Shown piece after piece: positions 11,008 through 29,057 of a DNA stretch of 64,000 bases. Source of the stretch: Alphaproteobacteria bacterium (GTDB lineage: Bacteria > Pseudomonadota > Alphaproteobacteria > Rhodospirillales > Casp-alpha2); NCBI GenBank assembly GCA_024279135.1, contig JAJRRU010000010.1:310001-374000 (forward strand), written 5' to 3'. The position numbers were made by a program, and so were the translations under genes. Positions within the stretch are counted from its first letter, which is position 1. Every line of letters begins with the position of its first letter. Under the pieces are notes generated by a model. That model did not search any database, was not told the DNA's origin, and saw nothing but the letters and a program-made list of their open reading frames with translations.

Positions 11008-12435
11008 CTATCCAAAGATTGACAGAAACTTTACAATCATCCTGGTGCGTGGACTGAACAGGGACGGCGTGTAAAAACTGCCGGCTGCGCGCTTGCTGGC
11101 TTCGCCAAACGTGGGGTAGGGCGCAATCATGCTCGCCACGGTCCCGATTTTCAACTTGTTGGACATGGCAAGAACCCAGGTCTGGATCATTTCTCCGGCA
11201 CCCGGACCCACAATGGACGCCCCCAGGATGTGCCCCTTGGGTGTGACCATGACCTTGACCATACCGTGGGTCTGGTGTTCGGCCTGAGCGCGGTCATTTT
11301 CATGGAAAGGCCAGCGCAGGATACGGATATCGTCCCCGTGTTTCTTGCGTGCTTCGGCCTCGATCAGGCCCACCTGGGCCAGTTCTGGGCTGGTATAGGT
11401 GACCCACGGAACCGCATGATAACTGGCTTTTGCGGGTAATCTGAACAACGCGTTGCGAATAAAAATTCCGGCATGGTAGCCTGCAACGTGGGTGAACTGA
11501 AAACCCCCGGCGCAGTCGCCGATGGCGTAAACTTTTTTATTCGAGGTTCGCAGTCGGTTATCGACCTCGATGCCTGTGCGGGCATATTTGATGCCGCCAG
11601 CTTCAAGATCAAGACCATCCAGATTTGGTCGCCGCCCTGCCGCAATCAATAAATCAGAGCCGTCGATGGTGCTTGTAACATCGTCCTTTTTAATGGTGAC
11701 CCGCACCCCGTCCGGAGTCTTTTCAATGCTTTCCACGCCGACACCCTCGCGAATATCGACCCCTTCCCTGAGCAGGGACTGGCGAACCACGTCAACCAGC
11801 TCGGCGTCATCCTTGGGCATGATGGTGAACATTTCCAGCACGGTAACCTGGGCACCAAGCCGGGTGTGGGCCTGGGCCAGTTCACAACCGATAGGTCCGC
11901 CACCGATAATAATCAGGTGTTTTGGGAAAGCCCGCGGGCTGAAAATAGTCTCGTTGGTATAATAAGGTATGGTATCGATGCCGGGAATTGGTGGCACCGC
12001 AGCGCTTGAGCCCGTGGAGATGACAAATCGTCGGGCGGAAATCCGGGTCTCACCGACGACCACTTCCCGGCGGCCGGAAAACCGGGCGGCACCCTGGATT
12101 ACCTCAACGCCGAGGCCTTCAAACCGTTCGATGGAATCATTGGGGGCTATGGCATCGATGACACCTTGAACATGGTTATAGAGGGCGTTGTGGTCGATAT
12201 CCGGTTCACTGCCGGTTATGCCAAAAGGTTCGCCCGAACGGAAAGCCTGCGCCGCCTTGCCAGCCGCCAGCATGGCTTTGGAAGGGACGCACCCGAAATT
12301 CAGACAGTCCCCGCCCATTTTTGCCTTTTCGATCAGCACCGTTTTTGCACCCATTTGCGAGCAGCCTGCCGCCACAGACAAACCACCGGAACCGGCACCA
12401 ATAACACAAATATCAGCCTTTATGGATTGGGACAT
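11008..12435 (-). CDS. mercuric-reductase-like FAD/NAD(P)-disulfide oxidoreductase
   Basis: This 475-residue flavoprotein belongs to the dihydrolipoamide dehydrogenase/mercuric reductase family. The FAD Rossmann motif is GAGSGG (residues 13-18), the redox-active disulfide is Cys44/Cys49 (GGDCLNFGCVPSK), the NAD(P) motif is GGGPIGCE and the second FAD motif is YAIGDCAGG. The position of the catalytic His in lipoamide dehydrogenases is Tyr440 (PYPTFGE), as I recall for MerA. The N-terminal HMA domain and C-terminal Cys pair of true MerA are absent. Its start is 28 bases after the TVP38 gene, a pairing seen in many bacteria. The substrate is unknown. Confidence 0.88.
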   Translation of the reverse strand: MSQSIKADICVIGAGSGGLSVAAGCSQMGAKTVLIEKAKMGGDCLNFGCVPSKAMLAAGKAAQAFRSGEPFGITGSEPDIDHNALYNHVQGVIDAIAPNDSIERFEGLGVEVIQGAARFSGRREVVVGETRISARRFVISTGSSAAVPPIPGIDTIPYYTNETIFSPRAFPKHLIIIGGGPIGCELAQAHTRLGAQVTVLEMFTIMPKDDAELVDVVRQSLLREGVDIREGVGVESIEKTPDGVRVTIKKDDVTSTIDGSDLLIAAGRRPNLDGLDLEAGGIKYARTGIEVDNRLRTSNKKVYAIGDCAGGFQFTHVAGYHAGIFIRNALFRLPAKASYHAVPWVTYTSPELAQVGLIEAEARKKHGDDIRILRWPFHENDRAQAEHQTHGMVKVMVTPKGHILGASIVGPGAGEMIQTWVLAMSNKLKIGTVASMIAPYPTFGEASKRAAGSFYTPSLFSPRTRMIVKFLSIFG

Positions 12436-12463: not shown

Positions 12464-13201
12464 TTACAGATTTTCCGAATGGGACGCTCTGAAACGTTTA
12501 TACAATACCGGAGCTATGGATAACAGGGAAAGACCGATAATGGGGAATAACACAACCGGCTCAAAGATAATGCCGATATTGGGCATTTCTCCGCGGTCCA
12601 GTACGGCCCCTAAGCCACTGCCGACCCAGGTGAAAACCAGCGAGCCCGGAATAATGCCGAAGAACGTGCCTATAATATAGGTTCGCAATTGCACACCCAG
12701 TAATGCCGGGACCAGATTAACCAGCCAGAACGGGAAAACAGGCACCAGGCGCAGAAATAAAAGATACGATAGCGCATTTTTGCGAAAACCGTCCTCCATG
12801 CGGGTCACGGCAGGCCCCGCCTTGGCGTGGAAATAGTCGGCAAAGGCATACCGTGCGGCAAGGAATATCAGGACCGCACCACTGGTAGCCGCGATAACCA
12901 CATAAATAACGCCCTGCAAGAAACCAAAGATAAATCCACCGGACAGGGTAATCCAGACTGCGCCGGGGATGGAAAGGGCGGTGACTATGGTATAAACAAC
13001 AATGAACGTGAAAACGGCCAGCACCATGTTTGATTCACACCAGTTGAGGATTTCAACCCGATGCTCGCTCAATGTCTCAAAGGATAAGAAATCCAGCCCT
13101 CCTGAGAATATGAATGCTGAAAAACCGGTTATAATGACGATAATCGGGAGTAACTTCTGGATTGATAACGCCGATTTTGCACCATTTGTTTTATTGCTCA
13201 T
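12464..13201 (-). CDS. TVP38/TMEM64 (SNARE-associated, DedA-like) membrane protein
   Basis: ATG at 13201 (MSNKTNGAKSALSIQK) gives 245 residues; an upstream start at 13273 is open but adds an unlikely polar leader. There are about five or six hydrophobic segments. The VTT domain signature appears as IPGAVWITLSGGFIFG (about residues 88-103), then FRKNALSYLLFLRLVPVFPFWLVNLVPALLG further on. The family is thought to act as lipid scramblases or transporters. The operon with a mercuric-reductase-like flavoprotein suggests a joint membrane-redox function (inference). Confidence 0.88.
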   Translation of the reverse strand: MSNKTNGAKSALSIQKLLPIIVIITGFSAFIFSGGLDFLSFETLSEHRVEILNWCESNMVLAVFTFIVVYTIVTALSIPGAVWITLSGGFIFGFLQGVIYVVIAATSGAVLIFLAARYAFADYFHAKAGPAVTRMEDGFRKNALSYLLFLRLVPVFPFWLVNLVPALLGVQLRTYIIGTFFGIIPGSLVFTWVGSGLGAVLDRGEMPNIGIIFEPVVLFPIIGLSLLSIAPVLYKRFRASHSENL

Positions 13202-13408
13202 TGAAGGTCGTATCCTGATCGGGTAGCTATAAGATGGAGTTCTATATACAGGGAAGAATGACAGAATAACCAATGAAAACGGGTAAATTATCCGTGATTA
13301 GTCCCTCGAAATGGGTTCGTGATCGATTATGGCTGCTCTGGATTCAGTGAATTTCCCTGTGTTGTGAAAAAAATGCCGATATTTCACTGGAAAAAACGGT
13401 GGTGAGCG

Positions 13409-23545: not shown

Positions 23546-24973
23546 ATGTATGATTCGGAACTCGATAAGCAACTTAGACGGGTCGCTAACGAAGCTATTT
23601 CTGAATATGAAGCCAAAAACGATGACGCGGCGAGGCGTGCGATTATCCGGACCATCGATATGTTGTCGGGTTTTGAGGAACACCTGTTTCATAGCGAAGA
23701 AATAATATTACCGTTGATGCAGATTATGCGGTCGCTTGGTGATCAGGATAACTGTAACCGGCTGGACGAGTTGCTGAGCGCCATGATGGGCGAAGGGCGT
23801 ATCCAGCGAAATCAAGCCAGCACAGACAAACTGTCAGCCACAATGCAGCAGATAAAAGCCCGGTTACAGTCGGGCGTGAGTGCGACTGAAATATCATGGC
23901 TGCAAAAAACAATCGTCGAGCTGATTGCGCATCATGCATGGCATTTTGATGAATATCAGATGGTTTGCGAGCTTGTTCATATTGCGCAGAAACATGGTCT
24001 TGATGGCCAGATTCACGGCCTGCAATCATTGCGGGGCAACTTGCGGGCACAACAGATAAAGGGCGATATTTATGGTAGCGAAGCAAATAAACTTTATCTG
24101 GACTGGATCGATTATCCGGCCATCATAACCATTGAAACATTCATGAAATGTAATGCCCGGTGTTCTTTTTGCCCCTATCCAATGATGGAGGAACAAGGCA
24201 TTCGGGCGGATCAAAAATTAAGCAAACAGTTGTTTGAAAAAATTATCAATGATTTGAAAGACATTCCACCGGAAAGCAGTTTCACCATCAATCTGTCCCG
24301 CGTTAACGAACCGCTGCTCGATACGCGGATTTATGGATTTATGAAAATCATCGATGATCAGCTGCAAAACTGTGATATCTGGCTGCCGTCAAATGGCTCC
24401 ACATTGACGGAAAAAAATATTCGCAAATTAAATGACATCAACTGTTTCACGACCCTTGGAATTTCCATAAACAGCAACAATCCCGAAGATTATGAACGCA
24501 TTATGGGGCTGCCGTTTGAGCGAACAGTAAAAAATATTGATCGTTTGCATGAAATGAAATGCGCCGGCAAGATAAACTTTAATGTGCGGCTGACTCATGT
24601 GACAAATTCGCGGCAGAAAAGCGTGGAAATCAATAATTGGCTGGTTGAGCGATGGCCGGAGTTCAATCCATGTTCCTACCGTGCCATGGACTGGTTGGGA
24701 CTGATGCCAGATGAAACCCGCGGTCAGGAGCCGTCTGACGTACCGGCTTTACCCTGCCTCGACTGGCATCAGGTTCACATTCTGGCTGACGGCAGCGAGG
24801 CGTTGTGTTGTTTTGATGCTCTGGGAAAATTTGCCTCGGGCAACGTCAACGATCAGCACATCCTGGAAATGTATAATGTGGACTGGCAGCGCAAGGCGCG
24901 CAGGTTGCTGGTTTCCCGGCGCTCAGATATTGTTCCGAAAATATGCCACGGTTGCCCCAGTCCGTTTGTCTGA
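23546..24973 (+). CDS. radical SAM/SPASM-like protein with helical N-terminal domain
   Basis: A 475-residue protein. Residues 1-185 form an all-helical, His/Cys-containing domain that I do not recognise. The radical SAM core starts near 190, with the 4Fe-4S motif KCNARCSFC (Cys202, 206, 209) and a substrate and SAM region (SFTINLSRVNEPLLD, WLPSNGSTLT). The C-terminal part has the SPASM-type spacing Cys404, Cys421/422, and CHGC (467/470), predicting a second Fe-S cluster. SPASM proteins mature peptides or carry out difficult radical chemistry. No precursor peptide is evident nearby. The substrate is unknown. Confidence 0.85.
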   Translation: MYDSELDKQLRRVANEAISEYEAKNDDAARRAIIRTIDMLSGFEEHLFHSEEIILPLMQIMRSLGDQDNCNRLDELLSAMMGEGRIQRNQASTDKLSATMQQIKARLQSGVSATEISWLQKTIVELIAHHAWHFDEYQMVCELVHIAQKHGLDGQIHGLQSLRGNLRAQQIKGDIYGSEANKLYLDWIDYPAIITIETFMKCNARCSFCPYPMMEEQGIRADQKLSKQLFEKIINDLKDIPPESSFTINLSRVNEPLLDTRIYGFMKIIDDQLQNCDIWLPSNGSTLTEKNIRKLNDINCFTTLGISINSNNPEDYERIMGLPFERTVKNIDRLHEMKCAGKINFNVRLTHVTNSRQKSVEINNWLVERWPEFNPCSYRAMDWLGLMPDETRGQEPSDVPALPCLDWHQVHILADGSEALCCFDALGKFASGNVNDQHILEMYNVDWQRKARRLLVSRRSDIVPKICHGCPSPFV

Positions 24974-27207: not shown

Positions 27208-28089
27208 CTACCAGACAAAAAAATCAGAATTTAATTCATGGCCGCGGCGGTTCCGCTCGACCTGCGGCAAGACGTCCATATTGGGCCAAATTCCGGAGAT
27301 CAGGGATTGCGCATAACTATCAGCCAGCCCGGCGGCCACCATGGCAGTGGAGCTTTGGACATGGGCATAGCCGAAGGCTTCGGTCGTCAGCCTGAAAGTA
27401 TTATCTTGTGGTTCCAGCATGGCGAACCAGCCTCTTGTGGTGCCATCATTGGCTGGCATCCCGATGACCCCGGCATTGGCCCACACCCGACCATCATCCA
27501 ATGGCGAGATAAATGGCAGACCAGAATGTCCGGCGATCACCACATCACTGCCCAAAGTGCCTAGGTGGCGGGCTTTTTCTTCATCAGGGGTGGAAGCGAA
27601 TATCCAGCCGCTGAGGGACGTGGTAGAGCCGTGAATAAAGCTGAACCGGCGTGATTTCCCCGGTGTCTCCATGGTCGCTACAATATGGCGCGGCAGGCCT
27701 CGCATCCAGGCCAGGGCGCTTGCGTCCAGGTGTTTGCTGGCATACTCAAACCATTGTCGCGACAAGGTGTCACAGGCGCTGTCCTGGGTGAAGCCACAGC
27801 CACAGTCTTCAAACTGGAAACCGAGGGATTCTTCGCAATTGCCCATCACCACATGAATGCCGGCCTGACGGATCAGATCGACGCAGGCTTGCGGCTCAGC
27901 ACAGTATGCCACAACATCGCCGGTACAGATAATCCGGTTTTTCGCAACCCCGCGCCGGGCGGCCAGATCCAGCATGCTTTCGGTGGCTTGCCGGTTGGAA
28001 TAGGGTCCGCCGAAGACAAGCATCGGATCGCTTACGGTGCCCAGATCCAGAATACTGTCGCCCAGAACCTCGTTTAGATCGCGCTGCAT
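27208..28089 (-). CDS. atypical metallophosphatase paired with a radical SAM gene
   Basis: From ATG 28089 the product has 293 residues. It resembles calcineurin-like phosphoesterases: GD at 57-58 (CTGDVVAYC), GNCEE at 83-87, IHG at 152-154, GHSG at 187-190, and the late block NAGVIGMPAND. The usual first motif DxHGN is replaced by GGPYSN (27-32), so the canonical Asp and His ligands are missing. There is also a DCGCGF cysteine cluster. Its start lies inside the end of the radical SAM gene (16-base overlap), which argues for coupled translation and joint function. The substrate is unknown. Confidence 0.8.
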   Translation of the reverse strand: MQRDLNEVLGDSILDLGTVSDPMLVFGGPYSNRQATESMLDLAARRGVAKNRIICTGDVVAYCAEPQACVDLIRQAGIHVVMGNCEESLGFQFEDCGCGFTQDSACDTLSRQWFEYASKHLDASALAWMRGLPRHIVATMETPGKSRRFSFIHGSTTSLSGWIFASTPDEEKARHLGTLGSDVVIAGHSGLPFISPLDDGRVWANAGVIGMPANDGTTRGWFAMLEPQDNTFRLTTEAFGYAHVQSSTAMVAAGLADSYAQSLISGIWPNMDVLPQVERNRRGHELNSDFFVW

Positions 28090-29057
28090 GACGCGCCACC
28101 GAGCACACAAAACCGTGCACAGTGCGGGTGATTGAGCTTGACCACCCGGCTGCATTGCGAAAGTTTGCTGCCCAGTTCAAACTGGGGGTCATGGGGTAAC
28201 AAGGTACATGGTGTGACCACCGGGGACGACGCCCCTTTGCGCTTGATGACCATGCGCGAGGTCGAACACATGATGGAGGTTGGTGCCACACCCAGGATAT
28301 CCCAGCAATGAATGGTGATCTCCGGCACGTCCTTCGTCACATCCATTTCGGGGAAAATTACCATGGATGCCATATTGTGCGCATCGACGGGAATTCTTTC
28401 GGCCTTGAACAGGGTCTGGTACCCACGGCGGGCTGTTTCGTCGCTTTCATCCCATACCGAACGCCCGGCGACCGACAGGTTAAATCCGTTTTCCGCCAGC
28501 CAGCGGAGGTTTTCGATCATGGGTGCCCAGGTGTTTTCACCTCGAATGTATTCATGTTTGGCCTGGCTATAATGATCGATGGAAATCCGCAGTGTAAGAG
28601 CGTCACCGAAACGCTCTTTAATGGCCAACAGGTTCGGGCGTTTGTGGTGCAACGGTTTTAGGGCATTGGTCAACACCAGGACACGGTAACCGCGGGCCAG
28701 GGCGTCTTCGATCATGGCGGGCAGGTCGTTGTTCATGAACGGCTCGCCGCCGGTAAAGGCAATTTCTTCCACCCGCCAGTCCCCGGTGGATATTTCGTCC
28801 AGGTAGTCGCCGACCTCCCTGGCGCTCAGATAGGCCAGCTCGTCATTGGTCGGGCTGGATTCCATATAACAATTCTTGCAGGTGATATTGCACAGACTGC
28901 CGGTATTGAACCACAAGGTCCGTAACTGCGTCAGGGCGACCACGGCGCGCTGTTCGCCCTTGGCCGTGATATCGGGATTGCTGAATTTTATGTGCTTGAG
29001 GCTATGGGCCTCATGTTGGGCGTCCCGGGCGGTGGTTTGTGGTTTTGTATTTAACAT
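28074..29057 (-). CDS. radical SAM protein with Cys-rich C-terminus
   Basis: A 327-residue radical SAM enzyme. The 4Fe-4S motif is Cys56-x3-Cys60-x2-Cys63 (CNITCKNCYMES), followed by the SAM-binding GGEPF and VLTNAL. The second half holds seven more cysteines (251, 264, 284, 302, 313, 317, 324), ending CARFCVLGGASCSAI, which suggests one or two auxiliary Fe-S clusters. Its stop overlaps the start of the metallophosphatase gene. I cannot assign a substrate; the resemblance to SPASM-type maturases is partial. Confidence 0.85.
   Translation of the reverse strand: MLNTKPQTTARDAQHEAHSLKHIKFSNPDITAKGEQRAVVALTQLRTLWFNTGSLCNITCKNCYMESSPTNDELAYLSAREVGDYLDEISTGDWRVEEIAFTGGEPFMNNDLPAMIEDALARGYRVLVLTNALKPLHHKRPNLLAIKERFGDALTLRISIDHYSQAKHEYIRGENTWAPMIENLRWLAENGFNLSVAGRSVWDESDETARRGYQTLFKAERIPVDAHNMASMVIFPEMDVTKDVPEITIHCWDILGVAPTSIMCSTSRMVIKRKGASSPVVTPCTLLPHDPQFELGSKLSQCSRVVKLNHPHCARFCVLGGASCSAI

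Follow-up and report, generated by a model that had tools for sequence, protein, structure and literature searches.

An unnamed radical SAM protein at the ArsS position of an arsenosugar-type gene set, with a rebuilt phosphatase-like partner

Why should a radical SAM gene run into the gene for a phosphatase-like protein whose first metal-binding motif is replaced? The question arises in a window of 64,000 nucleotides of alphaproteobacterial DNA, where two minus-strand genes overlap. One (28074..29057) encodes A2, our working label for an unnamed radical SAM family; its 327-residue product has a CxxxCxxC core and six conserved C-terminal cysteines. The other (27208..28089) encodes PP, a metallophosphatase-like protein of 293 residues with the calcineurin fold. 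The arsenosugar-type gene set in which we place this pair is already known. New here are the two elements of the pair itself: an unnamed radical SAM protein at the ArsS position, and a rebuilt phosphatase as its partner. A literature search that left out most subscription journals found no paper describing them together.

The PP reading frame spans 27208-28155 (minus strand) and contains an internal ATG at 28089. With that start the two genes overlap by 16 bases, the figure given in a first-pass annotation of this DNA and matched by the reading-frame coordinates; with the upstream ATG at 28155 they overlap by 82. The 28089 start is preferred, though not proven, because similarity to relatives sets in past this ATG among the matches listed. 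Elsewhere the window encodes another radical SAM/SPASM protein (23546-24973, plus strand), whose N-terminal region is weakly hemerythrin-like (E 0.038, below cut-off).

Association and fusion of the two genes

A scan of a genome collection yielded 476 pattern-matched stretches encoding PP relatives, and we retained the 80 best loci among them. The radical SAM gene is present in 55 of them, in three arrangements: as a separate gene ahead of PP (39 loci); as a separate gene behind it (2 loci); and in a single PP-radical SAM reading frame (14 loci, for example in Bradyrhizobium sp. BTAi1 and Acidiphilium rubrum). Several of the loci that lack it are short contigs. Among 100 related genomes, which overlap with the 80 loci and so do not form an independent set, PP occurs in 45 and the radical SAM gene in 76; 44 of the 45 PP genomes have both, with a few of the matches being fragments. 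The PP loci come from several families of Alphaproteobacteria, from Gammaproteobacteria, and from two records outside Pseudomonadota. A phylum-wide sample found PP in 5 of 249 genomes, all five from the window's class.

Adjacency, both gene orders and fusion together show that the radical SAM protein and PP are functionally linked; the earlier suggestion that the two genes belong together was sound. The fused state requires three changes on a PP tree of 79 rows, which includes 11 of the 14 fusions and nine of the ten listed ArsS-linked rows (L160 lies outside it). Four of the 80 PP rows (L054, L089, L100 and L105) had been removed by a length and stop filter before this tree and the alignment A4, considered below, were made. 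Related genomes do have gene order in common, and the window pair adjoins FolE, with a FolE-like cluster near PP elsewhere too, yet the fusions and both orders rule out coincidental adjacency, and with three tree changes to fusion (11 of 14 fusions) and the taxonomic spread just given, chance neighbours within one lineage have a negligible probability. Counts of other neighbouring genes are rough, as clustering merged the radical SAM protein and PP, probably because of the fusions.

A2 in the position of ArsS

A2 belongs to the radical SAM superfamily (PF04055, 60.7 bits against a cut-off of 29.5). In an alignment of the window's protein with 13 relatives, the three core cysteines (C56, C60 and C63) are invariant. 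The first-pass annotation had counted seven additional cysteines, and all are there (251, 264, 284, 302, 313, 317 and 324); six are invariant in the 14 sequences, and C302 is variable. Among the best 25 of 59 NCBIfam models, none reaches its cut-off with A2. The top score comes from the Rv1681-family radical SAM protein (NF049973), with 78.7 bits against a cut-off of 380 and a match confined to residues 47-222. A2 has no match to Pfam SPASM (PF13186), and the radical SAM half of a fusion model finds its best solved matches in SuiB, SkfB and BlsE.

The ArsS model (TIGR04167) gives A2 60.6 bits against a cut-off of 300, over residues 43-193 only, a score that rules out A2 as a plain ArsS member. 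The two do share a homologous radical SAM core: when its profile was compared with that of 12 ArsS rows, this core alone was aligned (hhalign probability 97.8). The C-terminal part stayed unaligned; judged by eye, its MC...C...HCxx(x)C...SC pattern is similar in the two. A2 has GGEPF in place of GGAPE.

The two are also alike in their neighbourhoods. In BTAi1 (L102), on Roseomonas haemaphysalidis plasmid p546-1 (L188) and at other loci, the neighbours are TIGR04282 and TIGR04283, both named by NCBI as arsenosugar biosynthesis glycosyltransferases; an FAD oxidoreductase; and a TVP38/VTT protein. Some loci also hold PhnD-, PhnE- and PhnC-like transporter genes and an Nterm_to_SelD-like gene. Across all these neighbours, some matches fall below curated cut-offs. 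In three loci (L056, L159 and L160) PP has an MTAP-like gene about 2 kb away or closer; none was matched in the remaining PP loci (flanks of up to 10 kb).

The association extends beyond close neighbours. We sampled 192 genomes, requested at completeness of at least 90%, from the class to which the window belongs, Alphaproteobacteria as judged from its nearest named relatives (Rhodospirillales). The radical SAM gene was found in 62, TIGR04283 in 82, TIGR04282 in 79, PP in 15, and ArsS in 2. The glycosyltransferase counts used E limits of 1e-20 and 1e-15 and include matches below cut-off; above the curated cut-offs they are 70 for TIGR04283 and 59 for TIGR04282. Both glycosyltransferases occur in 60 of the 62 A2 genomes, versus 16 of the 130 without A2 (Fisher p 4e-32, uncorrected for relatedness). 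At 8 of the 63 A2 places TIGR04283 is no more than 10 kb away, where about 0.35 would be expected by chance. Fourteen of the 192 genomes (G122, G143 and G144 among them) have both glycosyltransferases and neither A2 nor ArsS; perhaps these use a third radical SAM type.

The radical SAM protein and PP are thus part of a larger set that includes TIGR04282, TIGR04283, a MerA-like FAD oxidoreductase and TVP38. In the window's own genome the two glycosyltransferase genes lie on another contig (149.5 bits against 134 for TIGR04282; 220.2 against 182 for TIGR04283). The window itself holds a MerA-like FAD-dependent oxidoreductase gene (11008..12435, minus strand), 48% identical to the BTAi1 cluster copy, and an adjoining gene for a TVP38/VTT-family membrane protein (12464..13273, minus strand), 32% identical to its BTAi1 counterpart. 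Both are 14 kb from the pair. Relatives of the oxidoreductase gene lie beside the A2 gene or within about 2 kb of it at five loci (L036, L101, L105, L138 and L147), and the TVP38 gene is close to the radical SAM gene or to ArsS in other loci. Each is a probable module member; the oxidoreductase family is large, and its membership is judged from these relatives.

Several further genes were seen at these loci. The A2 gene of plasmid p546-1 overlaps by 4 bases a second radical SAM gene (L188, 7441-8820, plus strand), whose product is TrsS-like (100 of 490 bits). An AhpD/YciW-like protein is encoded near module genes on the plus strand at two loci (L036, 15163-15708, 146.6 bits; L101, 11354-11920, 141.2 bits; cut-off 310).

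ArsS and A2 exchange places in this set. Both ArsS genomes of the class sample carry PP and neither has A2. Their clusters (L159 and L160) hold TIGR04282, TVP38, FAD oxidoreductase, ArsS, an MTAP-like gene, TIGR04283, PP on the opposite strand, and PhnD-, PhnE- and PhnC-like and Nterm_to_SelD-like genes; neither of the two glycosyltransferase matches in L159 reaches its cut-off. The BTAi1 locus has the same set minus the MTAP-like gene and plus the PP-A2 fusion, and ArsS is absent from it. A2 thereby takes the slot of ArsS next to TIGR04282, TIGR04283, TVP38, the FAD oxidoreductase and PP. A search of the window genome with TIGR04167 gave no match at 1e-40.

The 27 of the 80 PP-locus genomes that have no close A2 copy in the locus were then checked for either enzyme. 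Seventeen have an A2-type protein, elsewhere or divergent (six are divergent, E 1e-46 to 1e-56); nine have ArsS above cut-off; and the remaining one, assembled from a metagenome, has neither. No genome has both, whether among these 27 or among the 192 of the class. The well-supported branches of the PP tree require four or more partner changes, with divergent A2 counted as A2 and with L055, which has neither radical SAM protein, excluded. From the two kinds of cluster, the 17/9/0 split and these partner changes, we conclude that PP belongs to the pathway, not to one particular radical SAM protein, and that A2 takes the ArsS slot. That A2 is a member of this module and replaces ArsS there is likely.

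These results revise the first-pass annotation, which had proposed a two-protein system. A2 occurs without PP in 49 of the 62 A2 genomes of the class, so PP is dispensable for the gene set, and in other PP genomes ArsS replaces A2. Separation of the two families, which the annotation held would speak against it, is accordingly frequent for A2 without PP and is hardly seen for PP without a radical SAM partner.

On balance we favour an explanation in which A2 replaces ArsS in an arsenosugar-type gene set, with PP as an accessory partner. ArsS is found in only 2 of the 76 class genomes with both glycosyltransferases, so the pathway mostly lacks an assigned first enzyme; A2, present in 60 of the 76, is a concrete candidate for that step.

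Arsenic or another element

By its position, A2 should catalyze a step equivalent to that of ArsS. The available text of one report describes a radical SAM enzyme that adenosylates arsenic in oxo-arsenosugar biosynthesis (PMC12159101), and that of another has ArsS working together with ArsM in Synechocystis (PMC8552651). On the model of ArsS, A2 would generate a 5'-deoxyadenosyl radical and attach it to arsenic(III), or to some other soft heteroatom, to form a 5'-substituted adenosine. The adenine would next be cleaved off, in some genomes by an MTAP-like phosphorylase, and the sugar would go on to be elaborated by TIGR04282 and TIGR04283. The arsinothricin system offers a partial parallel: there the radical SAM protein ArsL, with ArsM, forms a carbon-arsenic bond, according to the accessible part of PMC8552651. 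ArsL differs in transferring a 3-amino-3-carboxypropyl group, as the accessible part of PMC12159101 has it, and the available text on the ArsL/ArsM system mentions neither PP nor the glycosyltransferase pair.

Evidence on arsenic as the element comes from the distribution of ArsM. ArsM-like matches occur in 15 of the 62 A2 genomes of the class versus 4 of the 130 others; of these 19 genomes, six have matches above cut-off, and some matches cover only about 100 residues. At two loci an ArsM-like methyltransferase gene is close at hand: in L168 it adjoins the radical SAM gene (203 of 263 bits), and in L169 a divergent radical SAM gene lies no more than about 1 kb from it (164 of 263 bits). Both scores are below cut-off. 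The window genome has no NF008823 (ArsM) match at E 1e-30. Of the 80 PP-locus genomes, 49 were searched for ArsM (L078 is not among them), and 8 have it, 5 above cut-off, which rules out ArsM as an obligatory companion. Divided by partner, ArsM is found in 1 of 9 genomes with ArsS, 7 of 39 with an A2-type protein, and 0 of 1 with neither. Absence of ArsM therefore fails to separate A2 from ArsS, as the PP genomes with true ArsS are equally ArsM-poor.

Most of the PP genomes searched thus lack the usual supply of methylated arsenic and need another source of substrate. They may import it, or use something other than methylated arsenic. PhnCDE-like, sodium/solute symporter-like or MFS genes adjoin PP in many loci and could encode the importers. 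In Pelagibacter, phnD expression rises twofold with dimethylarsinate, according to the available text of PMC6426599. A symporter-like cluster occurs in 18 loci at a median distance of 0 from PP (the L101 gene, 4567-6006 on the minus strand, scores 32 of 184 bits); elsewhere an MFS or PhnCDE-like gene adjoins PP.

A competing explanation puts a different element, selenium, phosphorus or sulfur, into the sugar product and treats the arsenosugar label as no more than inherited annotation. ArsM is scarce in PP genomes (8 of 49), the Nterm_to_SelD name suggests selenium, and the PhnD-like protein passes the cut-off of the phosphate/phosphite/phosphonate subfamily (170 bits against 112). However, ArsS, for which the accessible text reports arsenic adenosylation (PMC12159101), fills the same cluster slot, and ArsM-like matches are commoner with A2 than without it. 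We regard this explanation as a genuine contender, though one with the balance against it, and put arsenic or a close analogue as the substrate at about an even chance. If the substrate is arsenic, counts of ArsS would greatly understate how widely bacteria make organoarsenic compounds.

The rebuilt phosphatase

PP is a member of the calcineurin-like family (PF12850, 34 bits against a cut-off of 27), and has no match to NCBIfam models. Its structure model is confident (pLDDT 93.6). The closest fold is that of SapH, the streptococcal asymmetric Ap4A hydrolase (3qfm; Z 26.9, rmsd 2.7, 245 residues aligned), nearly tied with 2gju, 1nnw and 3rqz (Z 25.9-26.2; for 3rqz, rmsd 2.7 over 216 residues). 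SapH and the metallophosphoesterase 3rqz have the whole-domain fold in common with PP; they differ from it in that PP has a Cys-rich loop. Vps29 chains also occur among the Foldseek matches (E about 1e-6).

The metal site is another matter. Against 3rqz, the nearest solved sequence, GGPYSN of PP occupies the position of SDVHAN, so the first-pass annotation rightly saw it standing in place of an expected DxHGN. That annotation also listed GD, GNCEE, HG and GHSG as kept. GD and HG are; the other two had been under-called, as PP has GNCE where 3rqz has GNHD, and GHSG where it has GHTH. PP thus retains GD, GN, H and GH motifs and lacks three parts of the two-metal set, all of which 3rqz has: DxH; the His of GNH; and the final His. 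In terms of this fold, we take the GGPYSN, GNC and GHSG changes to mean loss of the metal-1 ligands and of the catalytic His, and D58, N84, H153 and H188 to be the retained metal-2 set. The alignment agrees with the altered metal binding that had been predicted.

Is this remodelling peculiar to one gene? We gathered 46 PP rows by BLAST or profile, without a motif pattern. They represent 44 distinct genes (L139 repeats L008, and L141 repeats L006) and include one partial sequence (L152) and one 32% identical paralogue (L186). G28, D58, N84, C96 and C98 are present in all 45 covering rows, and H153 and H188 in all 46; none of the covering rows has the catalytic His, the site-1 Asp or the site-1 His. 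The 77-row alignment A4 agrees (all 77 rows match PF12850 at E 0.001), but its rows came from peptide patterns containing FGGPY and GNCEE, so the invariance of these motifs there is partly by selection. Since the residue pattern is constant across the 46 rows found without motif patterns, the changes read as a family trait rather than as sequencing error. PP is a family with coherent site remodelling, not a decayed gene.

The cysteines are less uniform. PP keeps a CxC motif (C96/C98), with further cysteines close by in sequence. C85 is Val in L159 and L160, from the ArsS clusters, and in the paralogue L186; C55 is replaced in L173 and L186, and C106 in L186 alone. This variation weakens the idea of an invariant four-Cys cluster.

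What, then, does PP do? Because the second metal site alone is kept and conserved cysteines are gained, an ordinary two-metal phosphatase is unlikely, as far as residues can tell. The first-pass idea that PP acts on the radical SAM product is possible but unproven. We rank three roles, with delivery favoured, a one-metal hydrolase as its main rival, and a pure scaffold as a weaker one. For delivery, our tentative proposal is that PP, as an accessory partner that in some genomes is fused N-terminally to the radical SAM protein, would bind a thiol-reactive and often imported substrate at a thiolate/metal site and hand it over to that protein.

Alternatively, PP could still hydrolyse a substrate, with a site that is rebuilt or uses one metal, and act later in the pathway, for example on a sugar-1-phosphate that would come from an MTAP-like enzyme. 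The four presumed metal-2 residues are present in each covering row, the closest folds (Z 25.9-26.9) include the Ap4A hydrolase, and the three loci with an MTAP-like gene have it near PP. Nevertheless, no covering row has the site-1 Asp and His or the catalytic His, the other PP loci have no matching MTAP-like gene within flanks of up to 10 kb, and the fusion partner of PP is the radical SAM protein. We consider this role doubtful.

More improbable still is a pseudo-enzyme that solely stabilizes or regulates the radical SAM protein. Vps29 uses the calcineurin fold without ordinary phosphatase function and is regarded as such a scaffold. Its presence among the structural matches, the loss of key catalytic residues and the 14 fusion loci all fit. 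Yet PP, unlike Vps29, retains CxC together with the site-2 ligands and has a radical SAM enzyme as its partner; these residues are constant over divergent rows, beyond what a scaffold needs, and PP also accompanies a distinct radical SAM protein, ArsS.

A bolder reading, which we hold to be less likely than not, is that the widespread A2 family forms carbon-arsenic (or other soft-element) bonds in place of ArsS, and that PP is a metalloid-loading module. A former two-metal phosphatase would have become a thiolate/one-metal module for an imported substrate, sometimes in one polypeptide with the radical SAM protein. With its fusions at some loci, PP lends itself to testing whether an enzyme fold has become the partner of a radical enzyme.

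Two observations concern PP copies apart from the A2-linked family or from A2 itself. The paralogue L186 (734-1366, minus strand), from a Hyphomicrobiales genome, carries GGLYGN, GNVE and THTC and keeps CxC; it lies beside ArsS, so phosphatases of the GGxYxN type extend beyond the A2-linked family. One genome (G049) has two divergent PP copies (L144 and L145), about 40% identical and on separate contigs (C27 and C84), and its single A2 gene lies on a different contig from both.
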